Source of the DNA: Halorubrum sp. BOL3-1
GTDB lineage: Archaea; Halobacteriota; Halobacteria; Halobacteriales; Haloferacaceae
Length of the DNA stretch: 64,000 nucleotides
NCBI RefSeq assembly: GCF_004114375.1
Contig: NZ_CP034692.1
Location: 248,001 to 312,000 of the forward strand
Direction of reading: 5' to 3'
Shown here piece after piece: positions 39,961-52,669 of this stretch. A model generated the notes under the pieces. The model saw only the letters and a program-made list of their open reading frames with translations, was not told the origin of the DNA and did not search any database. The translations under genes and the position numbers were made by a program. The stretch's first letter is position 1; each line of letters begins with the position of its first letter.

Positions 39961-40566
39961 ATGCGACTTGAGGCGACTGAGGGAGAAGACACGTACAAAG
40001 TGTGGATGACCGACGACGACTTGGACCAACTCCGTCGAGCCACTGTCTCATATCGAGACGACCTGATGCTCCAATTGGGCGGGTTCGTCGGGGTCCGGGC
40101 CTTCGAGATCCCACAAGTCAAGCCGACCCACGTCCGGCAGACCGACGCCGACCATTACCGTCTCCGGGTACCCCGGGGAAAGGACACCACTAGCTCGGGT
40201 GGGAAGCCCCGGAACGCCTACCTCCCCAAGGACGTCGAGCGCTCCCTCCGTCAGTACCAAAACGCCGAGAACATCGCCCCCGACGAACCCTTCGTCGACC
40301 TCTCCGTCCGGGGTGTCCGGGCTGCGATCAAACGCACGGCCGAGGCCGCCGCTAAGGAGACGGGTGATCCGGACTATCGACACGTGAGTTCCCACGACCT
40401 TCGCCGGCGATTCGCCCAGCGATTGCTCGTGGAGGAAAACATGAATCCCCGGGTGGTGATGCAAGTCGGCGGGTGGGACTCCTTCCAGGCCATCGAGCCG
40501 TACCTCAACGCCCCCACACCCTCCGTCGTCGACGACGCCTTCGAGTCCGCGGGGCTTCACGGGTAA
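39961..40566 (+). CDS. Short tyrosine recombinase/integrase
   Basis: A 201-residue protein that is essentially the catalytic domain. It has GFVGVRAFEIPQVKPTH (first Arg), RVPRGKDTTSSGGKPR (Lys), HVSSHDLRRRFAQRLLVEEN (HxLR), VVMQVGGW (the second His position replaced by Trp) and IEPYLN (Tyr). All key residues are there. The N-terminal core-binding domain is missing, as in many haloarchaeal XerC/D-like proteins of islands. Repeats follow directly downstream. Confidence 0.8.
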   Translation: MRLEATEGEDTYKVWMTDDDLDQLRRATVSYRDDLMLQLGGFVGVRAFEIPQVKPTHVRQTDADHYRLRVPRGKDTTSSGGKPRNAYLPKDVERSLRQYQNAENIAPDEPFVDLSVRGVRAAIKRTAEAAAKETGDPDYRHVSSHDLRRRFAQRLLVEENMNPRVVMQVGGWDSFQAIEPYLNAPTPSVVDDAFESAGLHG

Positions 40567-41243: not shown

Positions 41244-42614
41244 TTAGCTGTCACCGTCTTCGGCAGGAGATTGTACAACGTCTCCAAGGGACCGCACCAG
41301 CTGGACCCCGTTCTCGTTGTCGGTGGTGACCCGATACCCGTCTTCGTCCTGTGTAACGGCCCCGATGGTCGGGTGTGCGAGGAGTTGGAGGGTAGACCGG
41401 ACTTCTTTGGTGGTCGGGACATCGTCGGAGTCCTCCATCCCGACAACGATCCACCGGACGTCCTCCGCCGTCTCCACGGACCCATCGGCGCGTTCGAGGG
41501 CGCGGATGACTGCGAGGAGGGTCTCTCCGGCGTCGATGCGGTCCTGAATGGACTCGTCGAGGAGATCGAGCCTGTCGTCTTGGAAGGCCCCGGAACGGGT
41601 CAGGAGAGCAAGGATCTCTTCCGGGGGAACGGCGTACTGGTCCCGGCGGTCAAGGAGCTCAACGAGATCGTCGACGGCAAGCGTGGTTAGGTCGGTCGTC
41701 TCGGCGTTATCGATGACCTTCGGGGCGAATCCCGGGGCGACCACAATAGCATGGTCGGCCCCTCGTTGGCGGCGGTGCTTGTCCACGTTGGTGACCTCAA
41801 GAGAGTTGACTCGCCCGTTACCCCGAGCCTTCACTTCGATAACGACGTGTTCCGGGGATCGGATCTCCACGTCGGTGTCACCCCCTCCCTCGATCCAGTC
41901 GGCAGTACACCCAAGCCGAGAGAAGGCCTTCGCAACGAGTTTCTCGAACTCCTCGTGAGCGTTTCCATCCGTGCTGGCGGCCCGGAGTTGGTCGACGAGG
42001 TTGGGGGTTGGTCCGTCGTCCTCATCGTTTTCACCATCTTCGTCGTCGACGGGGTGGACACGCTCGCCGGCATCGGTCAGGTCGGCGATAGCGGTCTCGA
42101 CCGACTCCTCTCCGGAAAGTTGGTCGAGGCGCTTGTCGGCGACTCGGGTGAATCCCTGGGGACGATAGGTCTCGTCGTAGCCGACGAGCTCGTTGAATTC
42201 CTCGATGTCAACGTCAACCTCCTCGACGTCAGTGAGGAAGGTCATGTACTCCCAAGGACTCTCATCGTCCCATCGGCCGTGGTCGACGTTCTCCTTCCAG
42301 AGGTACTCCGCAAGGTTGGGGTCGTGCCGCAGTTGAAGGACTTGACCCCTCGCGACGAACCCTCCATCATGGTAGACGAGGACGATGTCGTTGCGCTCGA
42401 CGTTCCGCCATGCACCGTCTACCGAGGTGCCCCAAACATGGACGCGATCCTCGTCAGATGTTGTCCGAAACAGTTCGAGGTCATCCGCACCGAGATAGGA
42501 CTCGATGTTGTCAATCGGATGCCCATCTCGGACGAACCGCTTGTAGTCCTCGAAAGCATCGTCGCGACCAGCGGGGAGAATCACGATTCCAGTCATGGCT
42601 TGGGTGGACATCAT
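41244..42614 (-). CDS. EVE-like/Mrr-type restriction endonuclease fusion
   Basis: A 456-residue protein. Residues 8-150 resemble an EVE/PUA-like base-sensing domain (WRNVERNDIVLVYHDGGFVA, FVARGQVL). Residues 205-300 are a Mrr-like nuclease (EEFEKLVAKAFSRLGCTADW, EGGGDTDVEIRS, HVVIEVKARG; Asp246/248, Glu260, Lys262). The remainder may be a helical winged region. This build suggests a restriction enzyme that recognises modified DNA. Start is uncertain (ATG 42614 or 42596). Confidence 0.75.
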   Translation of the reverse strand: MMSTQAMTGIVILPAGRDDAFEDYKRFVRDGHPIDNIESYLGADDLELFRTTSDEDRVHVWGTSVDGAWRNVERNDIVLVYHDGGFVARGQVLQLRHDPNLAEYLWKENVDHGRWDDESPWEYMTFLTDVEEVDVDIEEFNELVGYDETYRPQGFTRVADKRLDQLSGEESVETAIADLTDAGERVHPVDDEDGENDEDDGPTPNLVDQLRAASTDGNAHEEFEKLVAKAFSRLGCTADWIEGGGDTDVEIRSPEHVVIEVKARGNGRVNSLEVTNVDKHRRQRGADHAIVVAPGFAPKVIDNAETTDLTTLAVDDLVELLDRRDQYAVPPEEILALLTRSGAFQDDRLDLLDESIQDRIDAGETLLAVIRALERADGSVETAEDVRWIVVGMEDSDDVPTTKEVRSTLQLLAHPTIGAVTQDEDGYRVTTDNENGVQLVRSLGDVVQSPAEDGDS

Positions 42615-42703
42615 CGGTGGGAAGCAAATAATTGGCTACAACCCGTTGGAACCCAATTCTCCGGGTACAAAATGGGATGACCAAGCTCGTTTACGAGGAT
42701 CGC

Positions 42704-43450
42704 TTATTGAGCAAATGAATTACGAACGTGTTCTGTGATATTTCTCTCTCCAAATGCTGGGATGAAATTCTCTGAAAGTGTTTTTCGGTCAGCAGCTCTC
42801 CCCAGTTCAACGTCTCCATCAATCGTTTCGGCTCTAATTGCTTCGCGTTCGACAATACCGGAGAGATCAACTTTTGGAGCGGCTTCTTTGATCTCTCCAG
42901 TAGGAAGGTGCTTCATCCAAAGGGTCCATCGGAGTCCATCAGTGCCAACTCCTACGAGGTACTTTTGATCGATATCGCGGAGGTATTTACAGAATGTGTC
43001 CTCTTCGAGATATTGTTGAATATCGGCTGTGGCGTCTTGTTTCGCACCTCGTACCAATTCACGGTTTGCAGCTTTCGCTTCCACGAGACACACTAATGAA
43101 TCATCGACGTTCTTGAGAAGATAATCCGGTTGTCGAGGTTCGACCTTACGATACGTTATCGGTCGGCGAATGAAGTGTGTACCACCCGCTTCGTACTCTT
43201 CAGATGTCGGACTCCGGTATCCGAGTCCGTGGAGAACAGGCTCGATCAAGTACTGTTCGGTAAAAACTTCGGGTTGCTGTTCAACCCGAGCTCCTGGAAG
43301 TGTCCCCGGATTACGGAGGACATCCGCTAATTGGCCTCCTTCGTTGAGTTCACGGAACTTTTGCGCAAACATCTCCATTTGAAGACGAACTCGCTCAGCA
43401 ATCTGGTAATCTGGGTCAAGGGTAGGATGTAAGCCGGAGTCGTCAGCCAT
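42704..43450 (-). CDS. Type I/IIG-like restriction endonuclease domain protein
   Basis: About 248 residues from ATG 43450 (ATG 43459 in frame). PDYLLKNVDDSLVCLVEAKA contains the Asp, Glu and Lys of the PD-(D/E)xK site. Upstream residues FTEQYLIEPVLHGLGYRSPT resemble the N-termini of Type I R and Type IIG proteins. No methyltransferase or helicase part follows, so it is either standalone or a remnant. Confidence 0.7.
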   Translation of the reverse strand: MADDSGLHPTLDPDYQIAERVRLQMEMFAQKFRELNEGGQLADVLRNPGTLPGARVEQQPEVFTEQYLIEPVLHGLGYRSPTSEEYEAGGTHFIRRPITYRKVEPRQPDYLLKNVDDSLVCLVEAKAANRELVRGAKQDATADIQQYLEEDTFCKYLRDIDQKYLVGVGTDGLRWTLWMKHLPTGEIKEAAPKVDLSGIVEREAIRAETIDGDVELGRAADRKTLSENFIPAFGERNITEHVRNSFAQ

Positions 43451-43510
43451 ACAGTTCATTTCGGACGTGTTGTTGATGTACCTGTTTGTTGATTCAGACG
43501 AGTCCAGCTC

Positions 43511-43848: not shown

Positions 43849-45489
43849 CTAGATCCGGTTTCGAGACCCAATAACATAGCCGAGGAACACGATGCCTGCT
43901 GTACCAGCAAAGGTTTCTATTCCTGCCACGATGCTCGTTAGATAATTCGGGGGGGTCTCCGGTGGAGCCGTTGTGAATGTCACAATACTATAATACAGGC
44001 TTTGATCCCACGCCATCCCGCCCACTTTCCAGTAGACACAGGCAGACAGCAAATACAACGCCAGCATCCACCCAACGACTGGTTTGAGTTGAACCCCATA
44101 TCCGGTAAAGAACCATGAAAGTCGTGAAAGTGCCCACTGAAAGGTTCTTTTGCCACCTGAGTCATGAAGTGCTTCACGGCTTCGTGCTTTACGTTCCTGA
44201 ATTAGAACTCTACGAGCGGATTCGACTAACCCGTTTTCACTGTATACAGTTCGAAGTTCACGGCTCGCTCTGGCGATGATGTCCTGAGTTTCTTGATCAG
44301 ATATCTCCTCAAGTTTCGACAAGCTTTGCTCAATTTCTTCATTGTAATCTACAATATTAGTCTCGCCGGATAGCCGTACCCCACTAAGTCTGGCATCTCG
44401 AAGATTTGGTTTTAACATCTTAGAATGACGAAGATCCGCATTAGAGAGATCGGCATTAGAGAGATTTGCTTTGGATAAGTTCGCCTCTCTGAGTATCGAC
44501 TCAGACAAATCGGCATTTTCGAGTTCTGCTCCTGAAAGATCGGCGTCTTGGAGTCTCGCCTTACGCAAATTTGTATCTTTGAGGATCGACTTAGTTAGAT
44601 TGGCACCCTTGAGATTCGCTTCTAAAAAATTGGTGTCCTTGAGTTTCGCTTCCGGAAGATCGGCTTTTTCAAGTTCTGACTTAGAAAAGTTGACATCAGA
44701 GAGGTTCGCTCCAGAGAAATCCACGTCGTAAAATTCCGCCTCAAGAAGGTCAGCATTATACAGGTTCCCTTCGGAAAGATCAACATCCTCCAGCTCTGCG
44801 TCTGAGAGCTTAGCATTTCCGAGGTAAGCTCCTGAAAGATCAGTATTTCGAAGCTCTGCGTCTAAGAGCTTAGCATTTCCGAGGTAAGCTCCTGAAAGGT
44901 CGGTGTTTCGAAGTTTCGCGTCCGAAAGATTGGCACCTCGGAGCATCGATTTTGGGAGATCCGCGAACTTGAGGTTTGCTCGGGAGAGATTAGCATCACC
45001 AAGATCTGCATCCGAAAGGTCAGCATTGTTAAGATTTGCGTCCGAAAGATTGGCATCTTTGAGGTTTGCTCGGGGAAGATTAGTATCACCAAGATCCGCA
45101 TCCGAAAGGTCAGCGTTGTTAAGATTTGCGTCCGAAAGATTGGCACCTCGGAGCATCGATTTTGGGAGATCCGCGAACTTGAGGTTTGCTCGGGAGAGAT
45201 TAGCATCACCAAGATCCGCATCCGAAAGGTCAGCGTTGTTAAGATTTGCGTCCGAAAGATTGGCATCTTTGAGGTTTGCTCGGGAAAGATTAGCATCACC
45301 AAGATCCGCATCCGAAAGGTCAGAGTTGTTAAGATTTGCGTCCGAAAGATTAGCATCTTTGAGGTTTGCTCGGGAAAGATTGGCTTCTCTAAGTATTGCT
45401 TTCGAGAGGTCTATATCTCTTAGATCTGCTCCCGGTTGAATATCTTCAGGTGGGATTTCATTATCGTTTGGAATTTCATACTCGCTCAT
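43849..45489 (-). CDS. Pentapeptide-repeat protein with C-terminal ion-channel-like domain
   Basis: A 546-residue protein. Residues 15-370 are A(D/N)Lxx pentapeptide repeats (LSRANLKDANLSDANL) forming a right-handed beta-helix. Residues 450-546 hold two hydrophobic helices around YYSIVTFTTAPPETPPNYLT, the pore pattern of two-helix cation channels but without the GYG filter. Long DNA repeats of 90 and 210 bp build the beta-helix. Possibly a membrane sensor/effector in defence. Lower GC than the host genes. Confidence 0.85.
   Translation of the reverse strand: MSEYEIPNDNEIPPEDIQPGADLRDIDLSKAILREANLSRANLKDANLSDANLNNSDLSDADLGDANLSRANLKDANLSDANLNNADLSDADLGDANLSRANLKFADLPKSMLRGANLSDANLNNADLSDADLGDTNLPRANLKDANLSDANLNNADLSDADLGDANLSRANLKFADLPKSMLRGANLSDAKLRNTDLSGAYLGNAKLLDAELRNTDLSGAYLGNAKLSDAELEDVDLSEGNLYNADLLEAEFYDVDFSGANLSDVNFSKSELEKADLPEAKLKDTNFLEANLKGANLTKSILKDTNLRKARLQDADLSGAELENADLSESILREANLSKANLSNADLSNADLRHSKMLKPNLRDARLSGVRLSGETNIVDYNEEIEQSLSKLEEISDQETQDIIARASRELRTVYSENGLVESARRVLIQERKARSREALHDSGGKRTFQWALSRLSWFFTGYGVQLKPVVGWMLALYLLSACVYWKVGGMAWDQSLYYSIVTFTTAPPETPPNYLTSIVAGIETFAGTAGIVFLGYVIGSRNRI
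44929..45400 (-). repeat. 90-bp and 210-bp tandem DNA repeats in the pentapeptide gene
   Basis: gaggtttgct recurs at 44971, 45061, 45181, 45271 and 45361 (spacing 90, 120, 90, 90 bp). A block around cggagcatcgattttgggag is repeated 210 bp apart. Near-identity of copies points to recent expansion by recombination. Confidence 0.8.
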
Positions 45490-45690
45490 ATGTACCTACT
45501 ACTCACGAGATGAAATAAAATTGCCCCACTGAAGAAGCCGAGATTTAATGAATGGCTATAATTATATGTACCACTCCATCTTTTGTAGGTACGACCATCT
45601 CAGGACGATCTGTGTTGTTGGGTGAACAGTGTAGACTCTAATCGATATGATTAGATAATCCTGACTGTAATTTCTCGCTCTCCGTCGTTA

Positions 45691-45700
45691 CTATTTTTAT
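45691..45700 (+). promoter_or_regulatory. TATA-like box of the restriction-modification operon
   Basis: ctatttttat lies 24-33 bp before the ATG at 45724. Confidence 0.6.
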
Positions 45701-45723
45701 GATTGGCCGGGGTCAGTTAAACT

Positions 45724-48669
45724 ATGTCCGCAAAAGAGGCAGAGTTCCACGGGATTCTGTTCACCCGACTTCTGGATTATATTCAAGATAACGAGACCCT
45801 ATTCAACGAACCTGTGTCGGAGAAGACAGTTGATAACGGGTTTGCCGATATCTACTTACCGAGTGTATTGAACGGTGAGTTGGTCATCGAAGTCAAGCGA
45901 GACGATATCTATCCGCGAGACAAGGAAGTCATCAAGCAGGCACGCACATACACGGACGATTTAGGTGCGGAGTTCTTCGCGACTTGCAACTCCAACGACT
46001 TGTTCCTCTTTCACTATCAGGGAGAGATTGAGTTGGCAGACATCGATTTCTATTATTTCAATCTCCGTGAGTCCGAGCTGAATGACGTCATTCCGCAGCT
46101 GCTTGGTGTTGTTGAACACGTCCACGAGGCGCAATCTCTCCCCGATCAGACCGAACGTGATCGACTCGTAGGGATTCTACGCTCGTTTCACTCATCGATA
46201 TGGCCGACGTACCGAGAGCTAGCTAGGCAGAAGTACGGAAGCAACGAGCGGTTCACGCAGCAGTTTGATGAGTGGGTACAAGAGAACGACTATGGTGACT
46301 TGGATGACGACGAGAAGTTCGAGGTGGCTGGGAAGCAATACGCCTACCTGCTGACGAACAAGGTACTGTTCTACGAGGTCATTCGGGAGAAGACGAAAGG
46401 GCAGTACGATCCAGAAGTTGGTGAGACAGTGACAGAGATTGAGACGAAGAGCGGATTCGAACTTGACCCACTTCACGGCCACACTACACTGTCGACCCTC
46501 GAGACGCACCTTCAGAACCAGTTTGAGACGATCATTGAGGAGATCGACTACGAACCGATCTTCGACGATGGGGCGAGCCTATTTGCGGACTTCCCACAGA
46601 ACCGGAAGACGCTCCGAACGTTAGAGGACTTCTTGGAGAATATCGAGGCTGAGTCCATAACGCGACTTGATGAGGACTTGCTTGGCGAGATCTACGAGGA
46701 GCTGATTCCAGCCGAGGAGCGAAAGATGCTGGGACAGTACTACACGCCACCGAAGATCGCCGAGACGCTGGCGTCGTGGGCAGTCCCTGACCGCTCCCCT
46801 GACGAGATACCGCGAGTCCTTGATCCTGCTTCTGGAAGCGGCACGTTCACGGTTGAAGCGTACAAGCAGTTGGACCAGTTACCGTCTCAGCCGTCGCATC
46901 AGGCTATTGTTGACCATCTCGTTGCTGTCGACATCAACAAGTTCCCACTCCACCTCACTGCCCTGAACGTTGCGTCGCAGAACGTGAGCGAGAAGACCGA
47001 CCGAATTCACACACACAATGACAGCTTCTTCAACCTGTCACCAGATGTCGACGCGCTGTTCAGCTCGAAGGTTCATGCCGATGACGACGGGGAGGTTGGC
47101 CTCTTCGACGCTGCTATCGGAAATCCGCCGTACATCGATCAACGCCGTCTCTACCCGGACAAGGAACACTTCCGGCGGCATCTGAAAGAGTTAGGGCCGC
47201 AGGGATCGAGCGTCTACTACGACGGGGACAAGCGGTTCAGCAAGCGATGTGACGCGTATATATACTTCATCACCCACGCCACGCAGTTCCTCAAGGACGA
47301 TGGCCGGCTCGGGTACATCGTGCCGACGAAGTGGATGATGACTGGGTACGGGGAAGAATTTCAAGAGTTCCTCCACGACAACTACAAGATCAGGGCGGTT
47401 GTGGCGTTCGGGGCTCGGGCCTTTCAGGATGCCTTCGTGGATGGGGCGTTGTTGATGATTGAGCGGTGTGATGACGAGGAAGAGCGGCGTAAGAACGTGG
47501 TCAACTTCATCCGAGTGAAGGGATCGATGGAGGCCGAGGACATCGTAGACACGGTAGAGTACGAACTCGATTTGGACGGTAGTCGGGAGATGATGATCCT
47601 CACACGCGATTCGTATCGGACGGTAGCAGTCAGTCAGGAGTACTTGATGGAGCGGGAATCGTCGAAACTCGGTCATTTCGTTTCCGCACCTCAGGAGTTC
47701 ATTGAGTTGCTTGAGAACTCTCACGTCACGTCGCTGGAGAATCTTCTCGAAGATTCGAGTCGTGGCGTGACGACGGGAGACAACGACTTCTTCCTCATCG
47801 ATGAGGAGGACGCCGAGGCTCGTGGAATAGACGACCGGTTCTTGACACCGGTGATTCGGTGGATCAAGCAGATGGAACCGCAGTCGAAGTTGACCAAGGA
47901 CTCGACGGACGTGTACCTCCTTGATATCAACGACTACGTTGAAGAGGTGAAGTCGGGTGGCAGTTTCGGACAGTCAGATCTCGAGGAGCGAGTGAAGAGC
48001 CAGCTCCGCGATGACGGCCACATGGCTCTCTGGGACTACATACGGGAAGGGGAAGCTCAAGGCGTCAACGAGAAGCGGACGTGCGCTTCGCGCGACGTGT
48101 GGTTCAACGTCGGAGAATTGGAGCGAGCCGACATTCTACACCCGAAGGGGTTCAAGTACCGGCTGTTCTGCCTCAGAAATGCCGACAGTCTTGCGGCGAA
48201 CAACCGCCTGTACCGCCTTCACCCGGCACGTGGGGTGGATACGAAGGTGTTGCTCGGTGTGCTCAACTCCACGGTGTATCAGGCGGCGGTTGAAACTCTC
48301 GGGCGGAGTGAGGGGCGTGGGATGTTGGAGTTGTCAAAGGGTGACTTGGTGAGTTTACCCGTACTAGACGTACGCAAGTTGGATGACGGGCAGAAGCAGG
48401 ACATCCGGGACGCGTTCGTACAGTGGGAGTCCGGTGTCGATGGTGCGCAGGATGAACTTGACGAGGTGATTCTGGACATTATGGGCGTCGAAACGAGCGT
48501 TGAAGAATTGCAAGAGCTCCGTGAAACTGCTACGCAAGAGCGAAACGATCGGGGGACAACCTCCGAAGTGATGGTGGAACGTGTAGACACTTTAGAGGAC
48601 GTGGGAACGAACACGTTCACAGTTGGTACGGGTGAGGCTGACGAGGCGGAATTGAGTGACTTCATGTAA
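45724..48669 (+). CDS. Type IIG-like restriction-modification enzyme (nuclease + N6-adenine methyltransferase)
   Basis: A 981-residue single-chain enzyme. Residues 40-65 hold a PD-(D/E)xK nuclease site (ADIYLPSVLNGELVIEVKRD). A helical linker runs to QYYTPPKIAETLASWAV near residue 340. The methyltransferase has VLDPASGSGTFTVEAY near 367 (SAM motif I) and AAIGNPPYIDQRR near 467 (catalytic NPPY). The C-terminal 350 residues form the target-recognition part. Start chosen at the ATG after a TATA-like box. Its stop overlaps the TBP-like gene by one base. Confidence 0.9.
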   Translation: MSAKEAEFHGILFTRLLDYIQDNETLFNEPVSEKTVDNGFADIYLPSVLNGELVIEVKRDDIYPRDKEVIKQARTYTDDLGAEFFATCNSNDLFLFHYQGEIELADIDFYYFNLRESELNDVIPQLLGVVEHVHEAQSLPDQTERDRLVGILRSFHSSIWPTYRELARQKYGSNERFTQQFDEWVQENDYGDLDDDEKFEVAGKQYAYLLTNKVLFYEVIREKTKGQYDPEVGETVTEIETKSGFELDPLHGHTTLSTLETHLQNQFETIIEEIDYEPIFDDGASLFADFPQNRKTLRTLEDFLENIEAESITRLDEDLLGEIYEELIPAEERKMLGQYYTPPKIAETLASWAVPDRSPDEIPRVLDPASGSGTFTVEAYKQLDQLPSQPSHQAIVDHLVAVDINKFPLHLTALNVASQNVSEKTDRIHTHNDSFFNLSPDVDALFSSKVHADDDGEVGLFDAAIGNPPYIDQRRLYPDKEHFRRHLKELGPQGSSVYYDGDKRFSKRCDAYIYFITHATQFLKDDGRLGYIVPTKWMMTGYGEEFQEFLHDNYKIRAVVAFGARAFQDAFVDGALLMIERCDDEEERRKNVVNFIRVKGSMEAEDIVDTVEYELDLDGSREMMILTRDSYRTVAVSQEYLMERESSKLGHFVSAPQEFIELLENSHVTSLENLLEDSSRGVTTGDNDFFLIDEEDAEARGIDDRFLTPVIRWIKQMEPQSKLTKDSTDVYLLDINDYVEEVKSGGSFGQSDLEERVKSQLRDDGHMALWDYIREGEAQGVNEKRTCASRDVWFNVGELERADILHPKGFKYRLFCLRNADSLAANNRLYRLHPARGVDTKVLLGVLNSTVYQAAVETLGRSEGRGMLELSKGDLVSLPVLDVRKLDDGQKQDIRDAFVQWESGVDGAQDELDEVILDIMGVETSVEELQELRETATQERNDRGTTSEVMVERVDTLEDVGTNTFTVGTGEADEAELSDFM

Positions 48670-49214
48670 TGACGGAGATTGTTAACGTGGTTGCGTCAGG
48701 AAGCCTCGGAAGAGAGCTAGATGTGACGAGTGTCGCTGAAGACATTAACGCTGGAGAAGTGGATACCCAATCGTACGAGTACCGCACACCAACCCTGTAT
48801 GTGAAAGAGCATGATGGGTCTCCTCTCGCCACCGTCTATGAATCTGGAAGTTACCATATTAGCGGTGCGAAGAGCGTCGATGAAGCAGAAGCAACTCGTG
48901 ATTGGCTAATTTCAGCGTTGGAAGATCTCGGTGTCGAAATTGGAGATATATCGTTTAGCGTTGCTAACGTGGTTGTTGTTGGTGATCTAGAAAAAAAGAT
49001 TGATATGAATAACCTTGTTATCGAGTTAGGGTTTGAGGCGACGGAATACGAACCCGAGCAGTTCCCGGGACTTGTGTACCGACCGGAGGATTCGGAGTGC
49101 GTGTTTCTGATCTTCTCGTCGGGACGTGTAGTGATTCCCGGAGCGCCTGACGCGGAGACGGCGTTCAACGGGTTCGATGAATTGAAGAAGAAGCTCACTG
49201 CGCTAGCGAAGTGA
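48669..49214 (+). CDS. Divergent TATA-binding protein encoded in a restriction-modification operon
   Basis: A 181-residue TBP-fold protein with two repeats. Repeat 1 (EIVNVVASGSLGRELDVTSV to YHISGAKSVDEA) is diverged: the usual FPGLVYR strand is TPTLYVK. Repeat 2 (VANVVVVGDLEKKIDMNNLV, EYEPEQFPGLVYRPED, FLIFSSGRVVIPGAPD) is close to canonical archaeal TBP. The ATG overlaps the restriction-methylase stop (TAATG), so it is translated with it. It probably binds a promoter, possibly this operon's own, or couples transcription to restriction. Confidence 0.9.
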   Translation: MTEIVNVVASGSLGRELDVTSVAEDINAGEVDTQSYEYRTPTLYVKEHDGSPLATVYESGSYHISGAKSVDEAEATRDWLISALEDLGVEIGDISFSVANVVVVGDLEKKIDMNNLVIELGFEATEYEPEQFPGLVYRPEDSECVFLIFSSGRVVIPGAPDAETAFNGFDELKKKLTALAK

Positions 49215-49255
49215 AGCTCAGGTTACATCGGCGGACATCAATGAACACCCCTCCC

Positions 49256-50020
49256 CCTGCGGTTGCCGGCGTTCTTGGCGACGTCTATCAGCTGGATGTT
49301 CCAAATGTGCTCTCTGGCGACCAGGTCAACCAGTGATATCCGATGCCGATGTTCACGAGGGAGGGCGCGATGGAACAGGACGACATCGACTTCATCGCTC
49401 TCGATCACCCGCTCGTCCAGTCGCTCATTGACTTCTGTCTCGACTCTGACCGTGTAAAAAATCGCCCTCAAGACAGCGGAAGACGATGCTACGCCCGGCA
49501 TCCGCTTCACCTACCGACTGGGATATGTCTCTGGATCTGGGGATGTGGTTACTGAGAAACTTGTCAGCCTGTACGTCACCACGGACGTAACAGTCGCCAC
49601 GTCATCACCCGAAATCGTCGATACTCTACCGCCCTCAGAAGCGAAGACTATCGAGGGACTTGACCGGCTGGCGTCGATGGCCGATGACCTGCATCAGCAG
49701 GCGGAGATGGAGGCTTGGAACCAAGTCGAATCGTTCGCTCAGGAGGCCCGCCAAGAGCGCGAACGCGAGACCGAAATCAAACACCAACACGCAGAGCGGC
49801 ACTTCGAGGAGGAGATCAACCAATGGGAGGACCGTCTTGAAACGTACCAAGCGCGTGACGACCAGAAAAAGACATGTCGGCACCGATTGGAAATTCGAAA
49901 CGACAGCTGGGGTCGCTCCGTCGCGATCGCGATGAAGAACTCGTCCGACTTGAGGAGGAGAGACACGTTACGCCGGAAGAGCTTGAACTGGTAACTGCGT
50001 CTTTCATACTCGATTCGTAA
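49256..50020 (+). pseudogene. Decayed C-terminal part of a large SNF2-type helicase
   Basis: The homologous reading runs GVLGDVYQLDVPNVLSGDQV, TGA at 49334-49336, then EQDDIDFIALDHPLVQSLID, then a frameshift in an A-run near 49458 to GIRFTYRLGYVSGSGDVVTE, continuing to AEMEAWNQVESFAQEARQER and another shift in an A-run near 49868 to RHVTPEELELVTASFILDS and TAA at 50018. This pattern resembles the tail of helicase-related proteins that accompany DNA methylases. The ATPase part is absent. No product is expected. Confidence 0.6.
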
Positions 50021-50022
50021 CC

Positions 50023-50333
50023 GGCGTCCGATCGAACCTCGCCCCGTATTTGAGGAGGTGGTGTCGAGGCGCGCCGAGTCAGGCGCGCCGACCCCCTGCG
50101 TTTCTGCTGTAATCTGCCGAGCGAAGCGAGGCAGTGGTTTACTCCAGTGGCTCCTTAGCCACACACCTAACTGAGAGTTGGGTACCCCACCTCGAAGTCG
50201 CGACTCGGAATTGATTCTCTCCGGTGCTCGCGATATTCGATACACTCAGAAGTACGAGAAACCGAGAAAATAACAAGCAAAAACAACCGCTAATAGCCCC
50301 GGTTGATAGTGATGCCTCTCACGAGTCGCTGCG
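50023..50333. other. Gap with hairpins between converging units
   Basis: Contains ggcgcgccgagtcaggcgcgcc (paired GGCGCGCC palindromes near 50071-50092), a gtggct/agccac hairpin at 50147-50162 and a ctgcc/ggcag hairpin near 50115-50134. No gene is supported. These could be bidirectional terminators. Confidence 0.4.
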
Positions 50334-52595: not shown

Positions 52596-52606
52596 AGCCA
52601 GGGCAG
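52596..52606. other. Right attachment site (attR core) in tRNA-Thr 3' end
   Basis: agccagggcag, the last 11 nt of the tRNA gene read on the plus strand, repeats at 23445-23455. The island lies on the 3' side of the tRNA, so the tRNA stays intact. Confidence 0.75.
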
Positions 52607-52669
52607 GGATTTGAACCCCGGAAGTCTCGATTACAAGTCGAGTGCATGAACCGCCCATGCTCCCCTGGC
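52596..52669 (-). tRNA. tRNA-Thr (anticodon UGU)
   Basis: A 74-nt cloverleaf on the minus strand. Acceptor stem GCCAGGG/CCCTGGC, D stem GCAT/ATGC, anticodon stem CTCGA/TCGAG with loop CTTGTAA (anticodon TGT), T stem CGGGG/CCCTG with TTCAAAT. Discriminator base is U, as for archaeal threonine tRNAs. CCA is not encoded. Its 3' end is the integration site of the island. Confidence 0.95.

Follow-up and report, generated by a model that had tools for sequence, protein, structure and literature searches.

Two described groups of TATA-binding proteins (TBPs) bear on the protein considered here. Among haloarchaea, Becker et al. (2014) identified 21 TbpC-like sequences without the N-terminal pair of phenylalanines and proposed that they are nonfunctional or very specialized, in a paper that never mentions restriction (PMC4230888). 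Surveys of archaeal and haloarchaeal restriction-modification (R-M) genes are silent on TBPs (PMC10609329, PMC6471742). In bacteria, TBPs are parts of the TOTE/TALON conflict systems, with TALON coming from Bacillati, largely Chloroflexota, and having the TPR-CSD and TBP genes in common with TOTE (PMC12458937). We analysed a 64,000-nucleotide stretch of the Halorubrum sp. BOL3-1 genome (contig NZ_CP034692.1, positions 248,001 to 312,000; "the window", with positions counted from its first letter), in which a type IIG-like R-M gene overlaps the start of a gene for a TBP. To our knowledge, the regulation of restriction is almost unstudied in haloarchaea. TBPs like this one form a separate clade and are linked to defence genes across many haloarchaeal genomes. 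Because these altered TBPs almost always lie beside restriction or antiviral genes, they are probably an interchangeable switch for those antiviral systems. Relative to the 2014 paper, what is new below is the linkage to defence, the finding on selection, and the occurrence of copies in viruses. A first-pass annotation of the window, which knew of no described R-M system with a TBP subunit, omitted both the TbpC-like TBPs (PMC4230888) and the TOTE/TALON TBPs (PMC12458937), and no TBP partner of a type IIG enzyme is described in the open-access literature that we searched.

The host genome is haloarchaeal, 3.67 Mb in size, and encodes three TBPs besides the window TBP (181 amino acids, 48669-49214, + strand; PF00352, E=5.5e-33). 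The window protein has two Pfam TBP matches, scoring 40 bits for repeat 1 and 76 bits for repeat 2, and AlphaFold2 predicts a two-repeat saddle (predicted local distance difference test, pLDDT, of 94) with template modelling (TM) scores of 0.82-0.87 to the solved TBPs of Sulfolobus, Methanocaldococcus, Pyrococcus, yeast, and human. As in TOTE/TALON, a TBP-fold protein is thus encoded within a defence locus (PMC12458937, citing Aravind 2022). Unlike in TOTE/TALON, the TBP here is a haloarchaeal paralogue with two repeats and lies next to R-M/BREX (bacteriophage exclusion) genes, and a Pfam scan of seven window proteins from 41.2-52.5 kb found no match for the TPR and OB/CSD genes of those systems. 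The canonical archaeal pattern, with a pair of intercalating phenylalanines in both repeats, is not present. Instead, Tyr38 (48780-48782, +) and Tyr57 (48837-48839, +) occupy the first and second repeat-1 positions, while Phe132 and Phe149 occupy those of repeat 2, so that the protein has the TbpC-like pattern of an absent N-terminal pair and a retained C-terminal pair (PMC4230888). Repeat 2 reads YEPEQFPGLVYR and FSSGRVVIPG, near-canonical as first described, with the stirrup EYEPEQFPGLVYR (49044-49082, +) containing both the motif that contacts transcription factor B (TFB) and the first intercalating phenylalanine, F132, and with the second, F149, at 49113-49115 (+). Repeat 1 had been said to have lost its DNA-intercalating strand. 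It is the phenylalanine pair that is lost, and the strands are present in the AlphaFold2 model (E42-46 and E53-57).

A search of genome contigs placed the nearest relatives of the window TBP beside restriction genes, and the window-type pair recurs in other genomes (L009, L010, and L199), with R-M proteins ~65% identical and TBPs 57-60% identical to those of the window. We therefore assembled a set of 135 distinct haloarchaeal TBPs, chosen by sequence or location irrespective of gene context. It was drawn from the lower-scoring TBPs of 39 relatives, canonical controls picked from the same search, and most of the matches that 292 Halobacteria genomes gave at E<=1e-30. Gene calls came from our own script, with some starts uncertain, and the sample is large but its members are related. 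Neighbours were named with phmmer against representatives identified with Pfam and PADLOC, and a defence neighbour was defined as a methylase, type I hsd, BREX, or BrxHII-helicase gene at most 4 genes and at most 5 kb away. Thirty-one of the 135 TBPs form the canonical clade (Shimodaira-Hasegawa-like approximate likelihood ratio test, SH-aLRT, 100). A defence gene lies near 97 of the 104 non-canonical TBPs but only 1 of the 31 canonical ones (Fisher p=3e-22, without a correction for relatedness), and that single canonical match is a generic SF2 helicase. The systems comprise methyltransferase (MTase)/IIG genes (33), MTase with BrxHII helicase (25), type I (24), BrxHII (8), and BREX-like loci (7). 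Among the seven non-canonical exceptions, L034 lies in a BREX locus, where its 1244-amino-acid neighbour clusters with BrxC, and L021 is at a contig end with the tail of an R-M gene at 83% identity, leaving five. The interpretation in the first-pass annotation is partly supported. Among the roles that it suggested, a TBP-based controller fits best, and the partners extend beyond type IIG enzymes. Both of its proposed tests came out in its favour: the neighbourhood recurs across Halobacteria and in viruses, and these TBPs form a separate group, which rejects the possibility of a chance capture unique to one genome.

The nearest defence gene directly adjoins the TBP in 78 of the 97 cases, and the junction with the last defence gene is often a TAATG, TGATG, or ATGA overlap. 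This proximity goes beyond the mere sharing of an island, and so bears on the idea that these TBPs reprogram host promoters genome-wide under stress and are simply carried on defence islands. Such a role has some basis in Halobacterium NRC-1, where TbpD regulates ~15% of genes (PMC2121645) and tbpC rises 1.7-fold in low salt (PMC1971269). However, the published tree places TbpD apart from the TbpC group (PMC4230888), and no defence neighbour accompanies the canonical-type accessory TBPs that lie on secondary replicons (L092 and L112, from near-complete genomes), so that residence on accessory replicons is by itself an insufficient explanation for the linkage. We consider genome-wide action improbable.

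The first-pass annotation had named, as an outcome that would support it, a clade in which R-M-linked TBPs share the repeat-1 loss, and the TBP trees contain such a separate group. In a wider tree with 18 TBPs from other archaea added, and nine very long or very short rows omitted, a branch with SH-aLRT 98 has the canonical haloarchaeal TBPs and all other archaeal TBPs on one side, and on the other 66 defence TBPs, TbpC of NRC-1, and both viral TBPs; the window TBP groups with TbpC. On the tree that yields the canonical clade, the label "defence" needs 10 changes, compared with 37 in shuffles. With a profile of the defence TBPs, the defence-linked proteins head the list at 186-270 bits, and none of ~130 non-Halobacteria genomes from the same phylum exceeds 182 bits, although a few very divergent defence TBPs score lower, so that this result does not prove absence. 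Canonical haloarchaeal TBPs have phenylalanine at all four intercalating positions in 31 of 31 sequences, whereas in the 104 non-canonical TBPs phenylalanine occurs at 3% and 11% at the two repeat-1 positions (tyrosine at 56% and 82%) and 95% and 96% at the two repeat-2 positions. No phenylalanine in repeat 1 together with two in repeat 2 is found in 92 of the 104. Two TBPs (L102, 7791-8372, and L096_8682) have the opposite pattern, with the repeat-2 pair lost and the repeat-1 pair kept, the latter in a locus where three TBPs (L096, 8086-10053) lie beside an MTase, BrxHII, and a DruE-like protein of 1767 amino acids.

The same clade contains the TBP of a well-studied archaeon. On pNRC200 of NRC-1, VNG_RS11040 is the only complete TBP without the N-terminal phenylalanine pair, and its gene overlaps the helicase gene of an MTase-MTase-helicase cluster. 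We identify VNG_RS11040 as tbpC because it fits the published descriptions, in which the N-terminal pair is lost and the gene is number 5142 of the pNRC plasmids (PMC4230888, PMC1971269). Viruses carry these TBPs as well. In halovirus HRTV-9, a type IIG gene is followed by a defence-type TBP gene, with products 58% and 78% identical, respectively, to a host pair (L093), while HJTV-2 carries a TBP, an N4 MTase, and an Eco29kI nuclease. Both cassettes sit between ribonucleotide reductase genes and tRNA-Thr/integrase genes. Marine-type viral contigs (L237-L241) proved unrelated, with TBPs that have both phenylalanine pairs and no R-M label nearby, and these are probably virus-encoded canonical TBPs.

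Divergent sequence, and the failure to detect a tbpC-type transcript in laboratory cultures of H. salinarum PHH1 (PMC4230888), could suggest a decaying, functionless duplicate linked to defence genes by chance or by the clustering of islands. The selection and linkage data largely refute this explanation, and we regard it as very improbable. The median ratio of nonsynonymous to synonymous substitution rates (dN/dS) is 0.115 in the defence TBPs (52 close pairs) and 0.113 in canonical TBPs, a match that indicates purifying selection without decay. The association also occurs at many independent loci, and repeat 2 and its TFB motif are nearly invariant: per-column identity of the repeat-2 stirrup to canonical TBPs is 83-99% across the 104 proteins, save for one V/I column, with the TFB-contact stirrup YEPEQFPG kept at 89-99% per column.

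TBPs with 80-91% identity accompany type I systems at some loci and BrxHII systems at others, with the highest value being between L208 and L028. This exchange weighs on a different possibility, a subunit role in which the TBP binds DNA and tethers or loads the proteins of the system, whether restriction, methylase, or helicase. The stop-start overlap and conserved operon position would be expected of a subunit, and Mantel tests found some co-divergence of the TBP with BrxHII (r=0.39, p=0.003) and with the MTase (r=0.36, p=0.014). However, the same tests found no significant co-divergence with HsdR, HsdM, or IIG proteins, one TBP lineage is shared among unrelated enzymes, the order and strand of the genes are variable (the TBP genes of L012, L173, and L212 are divergent from hsd operons), and the TFB-contact motif is conserved though a tether would not need it. 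A subunit role is therefore doubtful, and the earlier suggestion of enzyme recruitment to promoters by the TBP is disfavoured, since TBPs with as much as 91% identity serve both type I and BrxHII systems. The exchange between unrelated enzymes and the conserved TFB face instead favour a dedicated regulator at the core promoter. At one pair of loci, L225 (pNRC200) and L029, the helicases are 93% identical and the TBPs 83%, indicating that the TBP evolves faster than its partner.

The retained residues suggest how such a regulator could act. In TBP-TATA complexes, the upstream end of the element is kinked by the C-terminal phenylalanine pair and the downstream end by the N-terminal one (PMC3142196), and the defence TBPs should therefore retain the kink on the upstream, TFB side but not the second kink. 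We propose that the window TBP belongs to a TbpC-like family of exchangeable accessory genes that travel with type IIG, type I, BREX-like, and MTase+BrxHII systems. Together with the host TFB and RNA polymerase, the TBP would assemble at promoters through repeat 2, which would provide the upstream kink and TFB contact, and the normal downstream kink would be absent at these promoters. The TBP could thereby set or limit transcription of the linked defence operon, in a feedback role comparable to that of bacterial C proteins, with translational coupling expected to keep the amounts of TBP and enzyme in step. The net effect may be activation, repression, or both. The metazoan TBP paralogue TLF/TRF2 offers a parallel, as it is also divergent, keeps its TFIIB contact, has altered TATA binding, and acts at a subset of promoters (PMC3142196), but it is eukaryotic, has no linkage to defence, and arose independently.

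The same features could also belong to an antiviral effector. A one-kink TBP released or made on infection might compete for TFB or occupy viral promoters and so stop transcription, with the cutting or modification of DNA left to the linked system. Retention of the TFB-contact motif with loss of the DNA-kinking pair is what a competitor would be expected to show, and TLF/TRF2, which does not bind TATA but does bind TFIIA and TFIIB, can repress TATA promoters (PMC3142196). The occurrence of defence TBPs with very different defence systems, and of two TBPs in some of them (L163, L165, L175, and L180), would also fit. In contrast, two viruses themselves carry a defence TBP, the tight translational coupling points to a constant ratio of TBP to enzyme, and ~80% of the non-canonical group retain N6, R46, and R58, the residues with which repeat 1 contacts DNA, so that the protein still looks like a DNA binder. 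An effector role is unlikely, if less so than a subunit or genome-wide one.

We infer that the TBP regulates its linked defence operon, and on balance we lean towards a mobile, dedicated core-promoter factor as the explanation. Bacterial C proteins are similar in that a small regulator gene is linked to R-M genes and moves with them. C proteins, however, recognize palindromic C-boxes at their own promoter and interact with sigma-70 (PMC4824078), whereas the defence TBP is a core promoter factor with the TBP fold, for which we identified no operator, and the window protein has only TBP matches in Pfam and NCBIfam, without the helix-turn-helix match expected of a C protein. In the fuller proposal, the one-kink family would be a mobile and interchangeable module that forms alternative pre-initiation complexes reserved for the defence operon, giving archaea an equivalent of C proteins that works through recognition of the core promoter. 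In our judgement this proposal is evenly poised. Several observations weigh against control of the operon by the TBP. Deletion of tbpC in NRC-1 gave no apparent phenotype under standard conditions (PMC2121645). No special motif common to the regions upstream of defence operons was found, and their TATA-like elements are at the usual -31 to -24, as in controls. No TFB gene adjoins the defence TBPs, where one was looked for, and a dedicated TFB partner was rejected on this basis. Strict co-evolution with one enzyme was dropped because co-divergence is moderate or absent. Finally, some MTase+BrxHII operons already hold an AbrB-like regulator.

If control by the TBP is correct, a general initiation factor serves as a dedicated switch of immune systems, and TbpC, long known from a model archaeon without a phenotype, gains a likely and testable role. 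The linkage also suggests that the multiplicity of haloarchaeal TBPs may partly reflect regulation of defence systems, besides environmental promoter selection. TbpC-type TBPs beside unannotated genes could likewise mark unknown defence systems. In L038, L202, and L101, defence-type TBPs adjoin genes without a known defence match, and these loci are candidates for such systems.

In the window, the partner of the TBP is a 981-amino-acid protein (45724-48669, +) with Pfam matches to N6_Mtase (E=3e-23) and Eco57I (E=3e-22) and the PADLOC labels MTase_II and REase_MTase_IIG. From sequence and alignment, MTase motif I is DPASGSGTF (46822-46848, +) and motif IV is NPPY (47122-47133, +), invariant in four of four proteins, and the adenine MTase is certain. 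At the N terminus, a PD-(D/E)xK-like nuclease motif, D42...E56-V-K58 (45847-45897, +), was recognized by eye and is conserved in L009 and L010, with the fold being putative; the structure prediction, from an alignment of four sequences, has a pLDDT of 37. Like Eco57I-like type IIG enzymes, the protein combines a nuclease-like motif, an N6 MTase, and a weak specificity domain in one chain, and type IIG is its natural reading, with a putative nuclease part. The stop codon of this gene and the start codon of the TBP gene share one base in TAATG (48667-48671, +), as first noted, with similar TAATG/TGATG/ATGA overlaps in relatives. Upstream, ACTATTTTTATG (45690-45701, +), about -34 to -23 from the start codon, is a candidate TATA-like element of the operon. 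Its position is kept in L009 and L010, where it reads ACTRTTTTGATG, and an ACTRTTTT(T/G)ATG element is kept among the IIG orthologues.

Some MTase-BrxHII-TBP operons (L089, L164, L165, L180, L210, L211, and L213) begin with an AbrB-like open reading frame (ORF) of 63-69 amino acids. In these AbrB-headed operons the palindrome TAGTCTAAGTAAAGACTA, with small variants, adjoins or overlaps the TATA-like element and is likely an operator. Other loci have two different defence TBPs per system (L162, L163, L165, L166, L175, and L180), in arrangements such as MTase>TBP>helicase>TBP or TBP>hsdM>hsdS>hsdR>TBP.

Directly 3' of the window TBP gene lies a frameshifted remnant of the C terminus of a BrxHII-type SNF2 helicase (49250-50029, +). 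With residues 718-978 of the L029 BrxHII as query, tblastn detected it in two frames, at 64% identity over 139 amino acids and 39% over 272 columns. The remnant hints at a formerly larger system at the locus. Divergent from the R-M gene is a 546-amino-acid pentapeptide-repeat protein (43852-45489, -) with a C-terminal part resembling a membrane ion channel. Further upstream (41247-43459, -), a 456-amino-acid Mrr_cat restriction endonuclease-like protein and an adjoining 251-amino-acid protein, which by eye resembles the HsdR N terminus, are a defence island. The region is bracketed by an integrase-like ORF (39961-40566, +) and a tRNA-Thr gene (52596-52669, -), as in a tRNA-linked genomic island, and the viral R-M-TBP cassettes likewise adjoin tRNA-Thr and integrase genes.

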